From the NCBI GenBank assembly GCA_024686135.1, contig JAIBDQ010000002.1, positions 17,733 to 81,732 on the forward strand: DNA of 64,000 nt, written 5' to 3'. This DNA is from Halobacteriovorax sp. GTDB lineage: Bacteria; Bdellovibrionota; Bacteriovoracia; Bacteriovoracales; Bacteriovoracaceae. This document shows, piece by piece, positions 28,298 through 60,352 of this stretch. How positions within the stretch are numbered: position 1 is the first letter of the stretch; every line of letters starts with the position of its first letter. The notes below the pieces were generated by a model that ran no database searches, was not told the origin of the DNA, and saw only the letters and a program-made list of their open reading frames with translations. A program made the position numbers and the translations under genes.

Positions 28298-29128
28298 TTA
28301 AATTAACTTTAAACTTGAGTTTCCAATATTATTTGCTTGTGCAAGTGTACTAATACCTGCCGCTTTAGTAATTTGCTTCGAAGCTAGTGTTGCCGCTTCT
28401 TGAGCTACATCAACATCCTGGATCACAGACCTAGCCTGTTCAGTGTTAACTGTTTGACCCTCTAAGTTTGTCATAGTTGCTTGCAACCTATTCTGAAGCG
28501 CTCCTAGGTTAGCTCTTTGGCCAGACACTTGGTTAATAGCTTCGTCTAATGAACCAATAGATTCTAGAGCATCACTTTTTTCAAGGACTCCGGAGCCACT
28601 AATTCCTATATTTGAAGACGTTGCAACTGTTGCATCTGAATCAAATTGTATCGTATTTTCTTCTCCAGCAAAGGTTCCTACATGAAAATCTAAGACCCCT
28701 GCACCTTCACCACTCAGAAGGTTCATGCCATTGAATTTTGTTGATGAGGCAATTCTATCAACCTCGGTTGTTAATTGTTGGTATTCAAGATCAAGAAATG
28801 CTCTTTCATCTTCTCCAATAGTATCTGATGCAGACTGAACACTAAGCTCTCTCAATCTAATTAGAATGTTAGAAACCTCGTTAAGCCCACCTTCTGCTGT
28901 TTGCACAACACTGATACCATCATTCGCATTTCGTGCAGCTTGCCTTAACCCACTCGCTTGAGCTTTTAAGTTCGTAGCGATGGCCAAACCAGCAGCATCA
29001 TCTGCAGCACTGCTAATTCTTGACCCTGAGGAAAGTTTTGCTAATGATTTTGTTTCATCTCGAGATGCTTCTTTTAAATTCTTTTGCACCATCTCTGAAG
29101 CAATGTTTGTTGAAATTCTTAAGCCCAT
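28298..29128 (-). CDS. fliC: Flagellin
   Basis: GLRISTNIASEMVQKNL..., LSSGSRISSAADDAAGLAIA, ARNANDGISVVQTAEGGLNEV, C-terminal ISTLAQANNIGNSSLKLI. Confidence 0.96.
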   Translation of the reverse strand: MGLRISTNIASEMVQKNLKEASRDETKSLAKLSSGSRISSAADDAAGLAIATNLKAQASGLRQAARNANDGISVVQTAEGGLNEVSNILIRLRELSVQSASDTIGEDERAFLDLEYQQLTTEVDRIASSTKFNGMNLLSGEGAGVLDFHVGTFAGEENTIQFDSDATVATSSNIGISGSGVLEKSDALESIGSLDEAINQVSGQRANLGALQNRLQATMTNLEGQTVNTEQARSVIQDVDVAQEAATLASKQITKAAGISTLAQANNIGNSSLKLI

Positions 29129-29184
29129 TTTAATTCTCCTGTAGTTTTAATGTTTTGACCGAGCAATTAGGTCAGTTAATAAAC

Positions 29185-29319: not shown

Positions 29320-30150
29320 TTAGATCAACTTAAGCGCACTATTCATTGAACTATTAGTCTGAGCAAGTACTGATGTATTAGCTTCAGAGAGTATTCTTTG
29401 CTTAGCGAGGCTTGCTGACTCTACGGCAATATCAGCATCTCTAATTCTTGAGTTAGCAGCTGACAGGTTTTCCGTTTGAACTTCTAAGTTGCTCATAGTT
29501 ACTTGTAATCGGTTCTGGATTGCACCTAACTGGGCACGGTTTCCGTTTACAATATTAAGAGCGTTATCAATTCTTTCTAAATTTCCTCTTGCGTCGTCTT
29601 TAGTCGCAACATTAATTCCAGAAACACCCAAAGCGTCCAGACTTACATTTCCCTCTTCAGGTCTATACGTAATCCTATCTGCAACTTCGTCATTTCCGAT
29701 ACCAACTTGAAGATCAACCTGACCACCCTCACCAGATAGTAATTTTCTTCCATTAAATTCTGTTGATTTTGCGATTCTATCAATCTCTGTTGCCAGTTCT
29801 TGAGCTTCTAAATCGCTAAACTTTCTTTCGTCTGCCCCAACTGTATCTGAAGCCGACTGGATTGAAAGTTCTCTTAGTCTAATAAGTAGGTTTGAAACCT
29901 CGTTCATTCCACCTTCGGCAGTTTGAACTAATGATATACCGTCGTTAGCATTTCTCGTGGCCTGATTACCAGATCTAATCTGAGATCGTAATTTCTCAGA
30001 AATTGCTAAGCCGGCTGCATCGTCAGAAGCTGAATTAATTCTGCTGCCTGAAGATAATCTTTGTAATGTTTTAAATTCATCTCTTTTAATTTTTTGTAAA
30101 CTGTTTGTAGCTTGAATTGAAGGTACATTCGTTCTAATTCGTAATCCCAT
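29320..30150 (-). CDS. fliC: Flagellin (tandem paralogue)
   Basis: GLRIRTNVPSIQATNSLQKIKRDEFKTLQRLSSGSRINSASDDAAGLAISEKLRSQIRS..., C-terminal TSVLAQTNSSMNSALKLI. Confidence 0.96.
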   Translation of the reverse strand: MGLRIRTNVPSIQATNSLQKIKRDEFKTLQRLSSGSRINSASDDAAGLAISEKLRSQIRSGNQATRNANDGISLVQTAEGGMNEVSNLLIRLRELSIQSASDTVGADERKFSDLEAQELATEIDRIAKSTEFNGRKLLSGEGGQVDLQVGIGNDEVADRITYRPEEGNVSLDALGVSGINVATKDDARGNLERIDNALNIVNGNRAQLGAIQNRLQVTMSNLEVQTENLSAANSRIRDADIAVESASLAKQRILSEANTSVLAQTNSSMNSALKLI

Positions 30151-30257
30151 GTTTAATCTCCTCGAAACATATACTTCCTCCTTAAAATGAAAAGTTTAGA
30201 CAACCTTGTCAGAACCCATAATTAACAAGCACTCCCACAGTGCTGCTTACATAACCT

Positions 30258-53252: not shown

Positions 53253-54491
53253 TTGACTCGAATCACTCAGAGTGTCAAAATACAAATCCCTCACATAATA
53301 ACAGATATGGAATTAAGAACATACATTGAAAGTTATATTCAAAAAAGCTTCAAAAAAAGAGGCTTATTTAAGAAGGCTGCCAAGGTAAGTCTCAATGAAA
53401 TATTGGCACGTGTTGAAGACTTTAGTTCTAATCCATCTCCTCAAAGTTTAATAATTCTTCTTAGGGGCCTCACTACTTCTGGTGTCTATATTTCAAGAAC
53501 TTTCCTTAAGTATTTGGTATCTCACGTACAGTTTAACAATGAACAGAAGCCTGAATTATCAACTCTCGATAAACAACTTCTTAAATCTGTTTATTCTATG
53601 GAAGATATAGATCCACACGTCGCGGGATCAAAAGAGATCTTTGGAGCGATCTTTAAAGATCAGATATTAAAACATGAAGACCCAAACTATTTAATTACCA
53701 ATGATATTAAAAGGTTTGATTCTACTGTCGTACTAATTTCAGGTGTTTTAAACGAGATCTTTTCAAATGCAGCATTTGAAAGGGGTGCTCAGCATTTATC
53801 CGAGAAATTAGGAGTACATTATATTTGTCCCAAGGTACATGGTACAAAAAGCGTTAAACACAATGCTGATCTGTTAAAGGACCAACTTTTAGATTATTCA
53901 AATGATAACCCCGATGAAAAACTTTGGCTCCTTGCTTTTTCAAAAGGTGGATTAGATTGCCTTCATTTTTTAATTGAAAATCAAGAATTTAGTGAAAAGC
54001 ATATTTGCGGTCTATCAACTATAGCAAGTCCAATACTGGGGGCAGATCACTTAAATCATAAAATTTTAAAACTTGTAAACTCTCTTCACGACTACTCTGA
54101 TAATCAAGTCTATAAATTCTTTGAGAAGCAGTATGACTTTCTATTTAATGAGTTTCAGAAATCTCTTTCTCAAGAAAGACAAAAAACTTGGTTCTCCTGT
54201 AATCACGAAAGGCTACCAAATCTAGATTTTTACTCTTCACTTGCCATGGAGTCAAACTGGAATGAAAGTCACTTTTGGATGATGTTAACCAAAGCTTTTT
54301 TTCAAAATCAAAAGCTTAATGATGGAATAGTAATAGCTGAAAATGCTCTTTTTCCAAGCTATTTTGAGTCACATAATTTTGGTATAGTTAAAGGACACCA
54401 CTTAGTAGGAACGAGATCTAGTACATATAATCAAGAGGCTTTACTAGAAGCTCATATAATATATTTGCAGTATAAAAAATTACTTTCTTAA
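53253..54491 (+). CDS. Alpha/beta-hydrolase-like protein of unknown function
   Basis: [24 protein letters not shown] and nucleophile-elbow-like [18 protein letters not shown] start at 53253 in the track, ATG at 53307 ([10 protein letters not shown]) is an alternative. Confidence 0.55.
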
Positions 54492-55075
54492 AGGCCTGAT
54501 TTCAAGTTCATCAAGACTAATTTACTTATTGTTTTTAATGTCTCAAAGACACCCACACCGTCTGTAGCAATTGACTCAAAAGACGGAAGATTTCTTTTGT
54601 TTAACTTACGTTCAAGCTCTTCAATTGAAACAACATTTGGTAAATCTCTCTTATTCCACTGCATAACAATAGGGAGTTGATCTATATCATAGCCTTGCTC
54701 TTTTAAGTTTTTCTCCATTCCTTGAAGGCTTTCTAAGTTTGCTTCCATTCGTTCGACTTGAGAATCAGCAACAAAAACAATCCCATCCACGCCTCTTAAA
54801 ATTAGCTTTCTGCTGGCCTCGTAAAACACTTGTCCAGGGACAGTATATAAATGAAATCTTGTTTTAAATCCTCGAATCTCTCCTAAATCCAGAGGCAAGA
54901 AATCGAAAAAAAGTGTTCTTTCATTCTCAGTACTAAGGCTAATCATGTCACCGCGTGAATCTCCAGCTGTTTTTTTATAAACATACTGGATATTTGTAGT
55001 TTTACCGCCCATTCCTGGCCCGTAAAAAACGATCTTACAATTAACTTCCTTCGTCTGATAATTCACAAAGGACAT
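54488..55075 (-). CDS. mglA: MglA-like Ras-family GTPase
   Basis: [78 protein letters not shown]; start set at 55075 just after the roadblock stop. Confidence 0.95.
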
Positions 55076-55076
55076 T

Positions 55077-55559
55077 TTAAACTCCTGCAAACGAGAATAT
55101 TTTCTCGATTTCATCATCAGTTATATTTTCAAACAGTGGCTCTTCCATGCTTTCCCTTGCATCAAAATATATACTTAATTCTTCTACTATTTGTTGAGAA
55201 ACATTCCTTAACTTATTTTTAAGAATCGCTGGATTAATCTCATTTTTGAAGAATAATCCTAAGTAAAACTTTTCACTAGATGCATTTATTGGAAGAATAT
55301 AGATTCCAGAATCAGAGGTATCAAACCCAAGTCTAAAAAAGTTTTTTTCTTCAACCGGAAAAAAGTTAGCCATCGCTTCTGCCGCTTGCCAAGCCCCTGC
55401 CATCAAAGCGCCTAACGTTTGCTTATCTTTTTCGCTTATTTCTTGATCCTGCTCAAAGACCACTACACCATCTTGTCTCGCCAAGATAAGAGTGCTTTCA
55501 ATGGAGTTTTTTTCTAAAACCCTAGCTATCGAACCTCTTAATGTATCTTTATCTACCAT
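55077..55559 (-). CDS. Roadblock/LC7 (MglB-like) domain protein
   Basis: [47 protein letters not shown]; cotranscribed with mglA. Confidence 0.8.
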
Positions 55560-56485: not shown

Positions 56486-58156
56486 CTACTGTTTTTTATT
56501 TACAATAACCTTATCAACTTTTGTGTTGAATAGACTTTCGGCCATTTTAAGCTGAGGGTTATCTAACATATTTTTTTCTTTCTCTTTAATTGCTTCTTCT
56601 AACTTCATATCTTTTAAATTGGCCACTGAATGAAACTCTTCTTCTTGCCCTTTAAGATCAAACTCAAGTTCAAGCTTATCCATAGAAACTTGGTAATAAT
56701 TGGACAATTCTGTAAGTATTTTAGATCTAACTTCTGGCTGGGAAAGATACTCATAAAAGACCTTTGCCGACTTGGGAAACCCAAGCTTTACACCTAAAGA
56801 TTCTCCAATCTTTTTTGGCTCTGAAATTATATTTCCTTGCTCTAGATTATGACCCGTAGCAGGTGAAATATTATGAACATGATTTAAAAAGCCACTCCAA
56901 GTCCTCGGACCTTCAATTTTTGGTATTTCTTTTTGAACAACCTCAGGCTTAATTTCTTGCACCTCTTCCTTTTTTTCTACTGGAATATCTAATGGAATCT
57001 TAATCCTTTTAGGTTCTTCTATAGTTGCTTCAAGATCTTCTTCTTGAACTTTTTTTACTTCAACCTTTTTTTTTTGAACTTTCTCTCCAAGCTCTTCTCT
57101 TCTTACGCATATCTTTTGTAAGATAATCTCTAGAGTTTTTCCTAAATCATAGGTTTTTGTAGCCCACTCAAGATCCTTAGAAAGAGTTTCATAAATCCAC
57201 ATTAACTCTTGAGGTCCATAAGCATCTAAGGACTTGGAATAGTTCGTCTTCCCATCCATCAAGGAGTTAATCAGCTCATAAAATGTATCAATCAAGCCAT
57301 GATAAATTTTTTCAGAAGAGACATTCTCAGTTTGAAGGCCACGGTAAACTTCACTCATAGCCCTAACATTTCCAGATAGGATATGTTCTGCTAACTCGTA
57401 AAGACTGGTTTGCTTAGCTAAACCTAAGCCAAGAAATAAGGTGTTCTCATCAATATTGTTATTTTCAGAAAAAGTTAAAAGTTGATCTAAGATACTTAAA
57501 GAGTCTCTAACTGATCCGTTTCCAAAAAAACTAATTTTTTCAATTATATTTTTATTTTCAAAAGTGATGCCTTCTTTTTCCGCAATTAAGGAAATTAAAG
57601 CATTAAGTTTTTCAAGGCTAGGACTTCTAAAATCAAATCTCTGACATCTCGATAAAACAGTATCTAAGATTTTCTCTGGTTCCGTTGTCGCAAAAATAAA
57701 AATTACGTGCTCCGGTGGCTCTTCAAGTGTTTTTAATAGGGCATTAAAAGCGCTCGATGAAAGCATATGAACTTCATCTATAATATAAACGCGATACGTT
57801 CCAGTTGATGGAAGAAATTGAACATTATTAATAAGTTCTCGAATATTATCTACAGAGTTATTTGAAGCACCGTCGATTTCTATGACATCAAGAGATTGAG
57901 TGTCTGCAAAGTTTTCACAACTTGGACATACTTCACAGGCCTGTCCATCATCACCCAATTTTTCACATCGAATACTTTTAGCAAAGATTCTAGCTACAGA
58001 TGTTTTTCCTACACCTCGTGTTCCTGTGAATAAATAAGCGTGACCCGTCCTTCCTCTTTTTAAGGCGTTCATGAGTGAAGTTGTAATATGCTCTTGGCCT
58101 ATAACTTCTTCAAATTTTCTAGGTCTCCATTTACGAGAGAGTACTTGATAGCTCAT
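56486..58156 (-). CDS. dnaX: DNA polymerase III subunit tau (gamma/tau), DnaX
   Basis: VLSRKWRPRKFEEVIGQEHI, TGTRGVGKTSVARIFAKS, zinc-binding cysteines CEVCPSC, EVHMLSSSAFNALLKTLEEPPEHVIFIFATTEPEKI. Confidence 0.97.
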   Translation of the reverse strand: MSYQVLSRKWRPRKFEEVIGQEHITTSLMNALKRGRTGHAYLFTGTRGVGKTSVARIFAKSIRCEKLGDDGQACEVCPSCENFADTQSLDVIEIDGASNNSVDNIRELINNVQFLPSTGTYRVYIIDEVHMLSSSAFNALLKTLEEPPEHVIFIFATTEPEKILDTVLSRCQRFDFRSPSLEKLNALISLIAEKEGITFENKNIIEKISFFGNGSVRDSLSILDQLLTFSENNNIDENTLFLGLGLAKQTSLYELAEHILSGNVRAMSEVYRGLQTENVSSEKIYHGLIDTFYELINSLMDGKTNYSKSLDAYGPQELMWIYETLSKDLEWATKTYDLGKTLEIILQKICVRREELGEKVQKKKVEVKKVQEEDLEATIEEPKRIKIPLDIPVEKKEEVQEIKPEVVQKEIPKIEGPRTWSGFLNHVHNISPATGHNLEQGNIISEPKKIGESLGVKLGFPKSAKVFYEYLSQPEVRSKILTELSNYYQVSMDKLELEFDLKGQEEEFHSVANLKDMKLEEAIKEKEKNMLDNPQLKMAESLFNTKVDKVIVNKKQ

Positions 58157-58243
58157 TAAAAACTAGGTCCTGATTCGGCCGAATTGCCAATGAGAGAGTT
58201 TACCGAGGAAAAAAAAGGGTGGCAAAAAAAGATAAGTGGCAAC

Positions 58244-58329
58244 AGGGCTAAATGCACAGCAGCGCTTTGGCTACCGTTGCTTCCTTCCGGACCTGGCGGA
58301 GTTCACCCAGCAACTGCTTGCATCGCCCT
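58244..58329 (-). ncRNA. ffs: Bacterial small signal recognition particle RNA (4.5S)
   Basis: Minus strand contains the canonical domain IV CCAGGTCCGGAAGGAAGCA; flanks AGGGC-TGCA-GCAG / CTGC-TGCA-GCCCT pair; adjacent to dnaX. Confidence 0.92.
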
Positions 58330-58391
58330 ATTACCGCGGCTATTTAATGTCTATTTCAGGGAGTTGTCAATTTCGCTACGCAGAATAAAGA

Positions 58392-58479
58392 TGGCGGAGA
58401 ACATGGGATTCGAACCCACGATACGTTGCCGTATACCCGCTTTCCAAGCGAGCGCCTTCGACCACTCGGCCAATTCTCC
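58392..58479 (-). tRNA. tRNA-Ser (anticodon GGA)
   Basis: GGAGAATTGGCCGAGTGGTCGAAGGCGCTCGCTTGGAAAGCGGGT...GGGTTCGAATCCCATGTTCTCCGCCA; long variable arm; encoded CCA. Confidence 0.95.
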
Positions 58480-59782: not shown

Positions 59783-59859
59783 TGGCGCAGCTGGCAGGAG
59801 TCGAACCTGCGACCACTTGATTCGTAGTCAAGTACTCTATCCAGCTGAGCTACAGCTGC
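59783..59859 (-). tRNA. tRNA-Arg (anticodon ACG)
   Basis: GCAGCTGTAGCTCAGCTGGATAGAGTACTTGACTACGAATCAAGTGGTCGCAGGTTCGACTCCTGCCAGCTGCGCCA; 77 nt. Confidence 0.96.
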
Positions 59860-60163
59860 GCATTCAGTAAGGCTTTATATTAGCCACTGAGTCTAATGTC
59901 AATGTAAGTGGTTAATTTTATAGACAAAATAGCTATAAAACATCATTAAATTCAATTACTTATAATCTTTGTTTTTTTCCAGCATTATATAAAGATGAAT
60001 GGTGAGAGCCCTCAAAAGCTCTATCCTCTAGATAGTCACGAATAGGTATTTCTTAATTCTGAATATTCGGTGATTTTGTTAAGAGATTCACTAGGTCCAT
60101 CGTGAGTAATTTCCTGATCTAAATAGACTCTAAAGTATTCAATAGGAACTAGAAGAAATGGAA

Positions 60164-60253
60164 TGGCGGAGACGGTGAGATTCGAACTCACGGAACCGCA
60201 AGCGGTTCGACACCTTAGCAAGGTGCTCCCTTCGGCCACTCGGGCACGTCTCC
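60164..60253 (-). tRNA. tRNA-Ser (anticodon GCT)
   Basis: GGAGACGTGCCCGAGTGGCCGAAGGGAGCACCTTGCTAAGGTGT...GAGTTCGAATCTCACCGTCTCCGCCA. Confidence 0.95.
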
Positions 60254-60264
60254 AAGTAAAGAAA

Positions 60265-60352
60265 TGGCGGAGGACACAGGATTCGAACCTGCGGAACCGT
60301 GAGGCTCAACGGTTTTCAAAACCGCCGCTTTCGACCACTCAGCCAATCCTCC
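60265..60352 (-). tRNA. tRNA-Ser (anticodon TGA)
   Basis: GGAGGATTGGCTGAGTGGTCGAAAGCGGCGGTTTTGAAAACCGTT...CAGGTTCGAATCCTGTGTCCTCCGCCA. Confidence 0.95.

Follow-up and report, generated by a model that had tools for sequence, protein, structure and literature searches.

The run of ten consecutive A's in the dnaX gene of Halobacteriovorax sp. lies just past domain III and has close stops in both other reading frames, and it is very probably a programmed site of transcriptional slippage yielding both tau and a gamma-like form of DnaX. Besides, the comparison with relatives makes it reasonably likely that the mechanism of gamma production has changed more than once in one bacterial family, even within a single genus (g12): in genera g24 and g12, -1 ribosomal frameshifting on the heptamer G_GGA_AAG with a Shine-Dalgarno stimulator would have taken the place, at least twice in all, of register-free polymerase slippage on runs of 9-12 A's (A9-A12). 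The product would have been kept through these changes, and a nearly neutral genomic frame would let A9, A10 and A11 alleles coexist in close relatives, whether it is gamma or tau that stands in frame. The stretch of DNA analyzed, of 64,000 nucleotides, is referred to as the window, and all coordinates are positions in it.

The dnaX gene of the window and its A10 run

The gene (56486-58156, minus strand) encodes in its genomic frame a tau protein of 556 aa, identified as DnaX by the NCBIfam model dnaX_nterm (TIGR02397; 392.6 bits vs. a cut-off of 250, E 1.8e-117), and is flanked by an SRP RNA gene upstream and by ybaB and then recR downstream. The part common to gamma and tau, i.e., domains I-III, is encoded at 57076-58156 (minus strand), and the tau-only region, made up of a linker and the C-terminal domain, at 56489-57065 (minus strand). 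The last 150 residues of this region are conserved across the family, as judged from an alignment of 35 genera with a single representative per genus. The similarity of the C-terminal domain to domain V of tau is suggestive only, with weak matches to the Pfam model of that domain in 4 of the 35 family members (best E 0.009) and a marginal profile match of the C-terminal part to a tau chain (5fku, E 0.66).

Between both parts, the in-frame codons read CTT GGA GAG AAA GTT CAA AAA AAA AAG GTT GAA. The A10 run (57066-57075, minus strand) occupies codons 361-364 in the register CAA AAA AAA AAG and includes the heptamer A_AAA_AAG in register, just as a preliminary description of this DNA had reported. 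The close out-of-frame stops mentioned there are equally present: with an extra A (-1 frame) the sequence continues as GGT TGA, the TGA (57060-57062, minus strand) standing one codon past the run, and with one A fewer (+1 frame) as AGG TTG AAG TAA, the TAA (57055-57057, minus strand) standing three codons past it. The TGA would be reached by transcripts with a net gain of one nucleotide (or loss of two) or by a -1 ribosomal shift, with a predicted product of 365 aa ending in ...VQKKKG; the TAA would be reached by transcripts with a net loss of one nucleotide (or gain of two), with a predicted product of 366 aa ending in ...VQKKRLK. Transcripts simulated in silico with 7, 10 or 13 A's encode tau (555-557 aa), and those with every other A count from 8 to 15 encode a short product of 364-368 aa, which agrees with the length of about 365 aa and the location near codon 361 anticipated in the preliminary description. 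The Shine-Dalgarno-like GGAG that it had pointed out was found at 57085-57088 (minus strand), 9 nt 5' of the run, and is unconserved in the genus and the family; on the 3' side, a weak 7-bp hairpin occupies 57029-57048 (minus strand; z -0.92 for a 63-nt stretch). Background rates for homopolymers were taken as pattern counts on the genome's own assembly. Across its whole 3.29 Mb, A10 occurs in just five places, and the four outside dnaX comprise one in a stop-to-stop frame of 332 aa, the rest being intergenic or in a short frame.

In the proposed mechanism, RNA polymerase would slip on the A10 run, adding or dropping A's, and the dnaX mRNA would be a mixture of A-run lengths. Messengers with 10 (or 7, or 13) A's would be translated into the 555-557-aa tau, and those with other counts would meet a stop no more than three codons past the run, giving a clamp-loader subunit similar to gamma, about 365 aa long and devoid of the C-terminal domain. 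Furthermore, -1 ribosomal frameshifting on A_AAA_AAG may add some gamma in the window genome. Both the slipping of the polymerase and the production of gamma are deduced from sequence comparison.

Some further observations concern the surroundings of the gene and other parts of the window. The SRP RNA gene and four tRNA genes (Ser GGA, Arg ACG, Ser GCT and Ser TGA) are situated upstream of dnaX, at 58238-58479 and 59783-60352 (minus strand), with a tadA-like gene between them. Past recR, at 54488-55559 (minus strand), two genes resemble by eye those for a roadblock/MglB-type protein and an MglA-type small GTPase, and dnaX-ybaB-recR-mglB-mglA may form one unit. Elsewhere, two adjoining paralogous genes of 276 aa each (28301-29146 and 29323-30195, minus strand) are kept in two relatives, G001 and G082.

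The A run in related dnaX genes

The family (f1, apparently Bacteriovoracaceae) was represented by 130 genomes, and dnaX was read in 112 of them. Runs of A9-A12 are present in about half of these genes, in 30 of 44 genera, tightly placed at codons 352-390; about half of the genes have no run. Grouped by codon, runs of nine or more A's (A9+) number 5 at codons 341-360, 41 at 361-380, 4 at 381-400 and 4 beyond codon 400, and none was found in codons 1-340 of the 112 genes; T9+ runs are absent from all 112 over their entire length. Loss of the run in close relatives, which had been put forward in the preliminary description as grounds for refutation, was not observed, as the run is retained in them. 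The tree requires at least 14 changes of run state, and the 49 run-bearing cases amount to far fewer independent events because the genomes are related.

As to the mechanism, the preliminary description had allowed for transcriptional slippage, ribosomal frameshifting or both; the comparison favors the former, and the elements of the latter turned out to be unconserved. It is rather unlikely that gamma comes mainly from -1 ribosomal frameshifting of the E. coli type on A_AAA_AAG, the long A run being incidental, even though the window offers the heptamer in register with a TGA one codon later, the GGAG 9 nt upstream of the run and the weak downstream hairpin. Runs in the 49 genes start at all three codon positions (18, 17 and 14 cases), and A_AAA_AAG forms the end of just 9 of the 49. 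Both other frames are closed within five codons in 38 of the 49, vs. 7.4 ± 2.4 at control positions (none of 5000 resamplings was as extreme), and the mean distance to the stop is 2.8 codons in the -1 frame and 3.6 in the +1 frame, vs. 8.0 and 12.5 at controls in the same linkers. The +1-frame stop is thus about as near as the -1 stop, and this counts for slippage, since a +1-frame stop is useless in -1 ribosomal frameshifting. No excess of anti-Shine-Dalgarno pairing (16% vs. 12% in the control) or of downstream structure (z -0.23 ± 0.15) was detected in the run-bearing genes, and the GGAG of the window is missing in two genomes of the same genus, G001 and G002. The relatives with G_GGA_AAG show both Shine-Dalgarno pairing and structure, which makes them a positive control of the approach. 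Register spread, stops in both frames and the lack of enrichment of stimulators, taken together, thus argue for transcriptional slippage rather than E. coli-type frameshifting; of the mechanisms considered, slippage has the strongest support in the family, and it probably predominates in the window genome, where ribosomal -1 frameshifting on A_AAA_AAG may contribute to gamma.

The lysine tRNAs bear on that contribution. The presence of tRNA-Lys(CUU) is considered to counteract the slipping of ribosomes on AAG, and among the tRNAs inspected in the near-complete relatives G004 and G137 the only tRNA-Lys is UUU, which favors the ribosomal reading; some ribosomal frameshifting on A_AAA_AAG is therefore possible in the window genome. 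A loose pattern returned two plausible tRNA-Lys(CUU) genes in the 130 family genomes (L346 in G024 and L349 in G103), both in genera whose dnaX has neither slip site, and this tRNA seems to be rare in the family.

It is very improbable that the run arises as a by-product of a linker rich in lysine and in A+T, with no functional gamma being made. The linker is certainly rich in Lys and Glu, and synonymous shuffles preserving each protein and the codon usage of each gene leave A9+ at codons 345-395 in a mean of 20.0 of 108 genes (sd 3.2; maximum 29 in 400 shuffles); however, 47 of the 108 carry it, in a test that is conservative because lysine strings are kept. From codon 396 to the end, i.e., in the rest of the tau-only region, A9+ is below expectation (4 observed vs. 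8.8 expected). The exact placement at codons 361-380, the stops in both frames and the presence of G_GGA_AAG instead in relatives without the run also disagree with a by-product. In this sense, the conservation of the site supports the view that DnaX is made in two forms in a programmed way, and the gamma/tau production proposed in the preliminary description is well supported by the family-wide placement of the run and the near stops in both other frames.

Several genera (g5, g23, g25, g32, nearly all of g14 and more) have neither an A run nor G_GGA_AAG, and they may lack gamma or make it otherwise, e.g., by proteolysis, as in Caulobacter (PMC5009743). Runs of T6-T8 at codon ~343 in genus g14 were set aside, as they represent the SFF codons of a protein motif and show no conserved stop pattern. 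Beyond the family, runs of A9-A10 in the dnaX linker were observed in three other families of the phylum, at codon 380 of L222 (G270, f23), codon 416 of L225 (G300, f18) and codon 400 of L212 (G178, f11); most other families sampled in the phylum have no A run in this linker.

Frame flips and the G_GGA_AAG clades

The nearest relative, G001, is 94% identical over the first 370 DnaX residues and has an A11 run: its genomic frame stops after 365 aa, and one A fewer or two more lead to tau (565-566 aa). G082 has an A9 run with a TAA one codon past it, and one extra A leads to tau (635 aa). The genomic frame thus encodes gamma in both genomes, tau needing a net change of -1 or +1 nt, respectively. 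Over 120 kb around dnaX in G001, 57 of the 58 window proteins with matches are unbroken, the one exception being dnaX, which is interrupted at the run; therefore, the assembly is generally sound. The A11, which is the only run longer than 9 in that stretch, could be a homopolymer assembly error. A third flip was found in another family (f2), between L115 (G052) and L116 (G045) of one genus, both with A9 at codons 388-390: one of the two genomic frames stops early (405 aa), and an extra A restores 514 aa. Such flips are to be expected if slippage makes the genomic frame nearly neutral. A phase-variable site, where replication slippage would toggle cells between gamma-only and tau-encoding dnaX, would likewise produce run lengths of A9, A10 and A11 within one genus and the flipped frames of G001 and G082, but it is hardly credible, given that the long frame is kept in all but two of the run-bearing family dnaX genes, that full tau is expected to be necessary for replication and that transcriptional slippage predicts the same length tolerance without switching.

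Besides transcriptional slippage on A runs, a second mechanism is predicted in two genera mostly devoid of them. An in-frame G_GGA_AAG is present at dnaX codons 368-380 in 18 of the 22 genomes of g24 and in 4 of the 6 scorable genomes of g12 (loci include L021, L012, L132, L184, L204 and L149), and in none of the remaining 80 genomes; synonymous shuffles led to an expectation of 0.40 such genes in g24 (maximum 3) and 0.04 in g12 (maximum 1). The -1 stop lies one codon past the heptamer in 18 of 18 g24 cases, and one to three codons past it in g12. Anti-Shine-Dalgarno pairing in these genes is strongest 9-10 nt upstream, at -6.2 kcal/mol, and reaches -4 or stronger in 95% of them, and the 60 nt downstream are more stably folded than their shuffled versions (z -1.06 ± 0.18, vs. 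-0.18 for a control stretch); a consensus stem-loop 3' of the heptamer was sought in g24 and not found. The combination of G_GGA_AAG, Shine-Dalgarno pairing and a near -1 stop has the anatomy predicted for -1 ribosomal frameshifting. In a tree of domains I-III, lineages with the run stand between g24 and g12, and A9 takes the place of G_GGA_AAG in two genomes of g12 (G098 and G099). At least two replacements of the A run by G_GGA_AAG are the simplest reading of this distribution, their count and direction not being firm on a quick tree with weak deep branches. Within a single family, a turnover between slippage of the polymerase and slippage of the ribosome was not encountered in the open-access literature, the sole literature covered.

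Comparison with known systems

The dnaX gene of E. coli undergoes a -1 programmed ribosomal frameshift on A_AAA_AAG, with an upstream Shine-Dalgarno sequence and a downstream stem-loop. The window shares with it the heptamer in register, the GGAG and the -1 stop one codon later, and the G_GGA_AAG relatives share the Shine-Dalgarno sequence and the -1 stop. In contrast with E. coli, heptamer, Shine-Dalgarno sequence and structure are unconserved in the run-bearing relatives, and the g24 and g12 clades carry a different heptamer, G_GGA_AAG, with no consensus stem-loop found in g24.

Thermus thermophilus dnaX, on the other hand, relies on transcriptional slippage on an A9 run (Larsen et al., 2000, as cited in PMC1088944 and PMC5009743), and the same logic of slippage vs. 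frameshifting was set out for Thermus by Baranov et al. (PMC1088944). The window gene resembles it in having at least nine sense-strand A's between the gamma and tau parts, tau in the genomic frame and near stops in both other frames, and gamma would likewise arise by slippage; the Thermus-type independence of register and of ribosomal stimulators is seen across the relatives. It differs in belonging to another phylum, and whereas Thermus possesses two lysine tRNAs, used there as an argument (PMC5009743), the methods used detected no tRNA-Lys(CUU) in run-bearing genomes.

Antonov et al. (2013, PMC3711429; Bacteriovorax is not named in its main text) described dnaX genes made up of two ORFs and bearing A7-A10 runs, such as those of Chlorobium and Chloroherpeton. 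G001 and G082 resemble them, as their genomic frame is that of gamma and tau needs recoding; the tau frame of the window is intact, unlike in two-ORF genes, and both arrangements are found side by side in the family. Gene callers may mis-annotate dnaX as broken in genomes like these two. Poly-A frameshifts in dnaX, possibly corrected by slippage, have been reported in Blochmannia, whose genomes contain more than 100 long A tracts in genes (PMC3017870). The poly-A tract is common to both cases, although in Blochmannia it is the tau-only part that contains the frameshift, which is located 3' of the ribosomal slip site (PMC3017870).

Slippage in dnaX is of a kind already known from Thermus and the two-ORF genes, and the apparent turnover of mechanisms within one family is of greater interest than the window site itself. 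The importance of gamma outside E. coli has long been debated, and a gamma-making site kept through changing sequences, frames and, apparently, mechanisms is evidence of selection for the short form. The G_GGA_AAG clades beside the A-run clades constitute a natural experiment, in which the Thermus-like and the E. coli-like mechanisms can be compared in related hosts.
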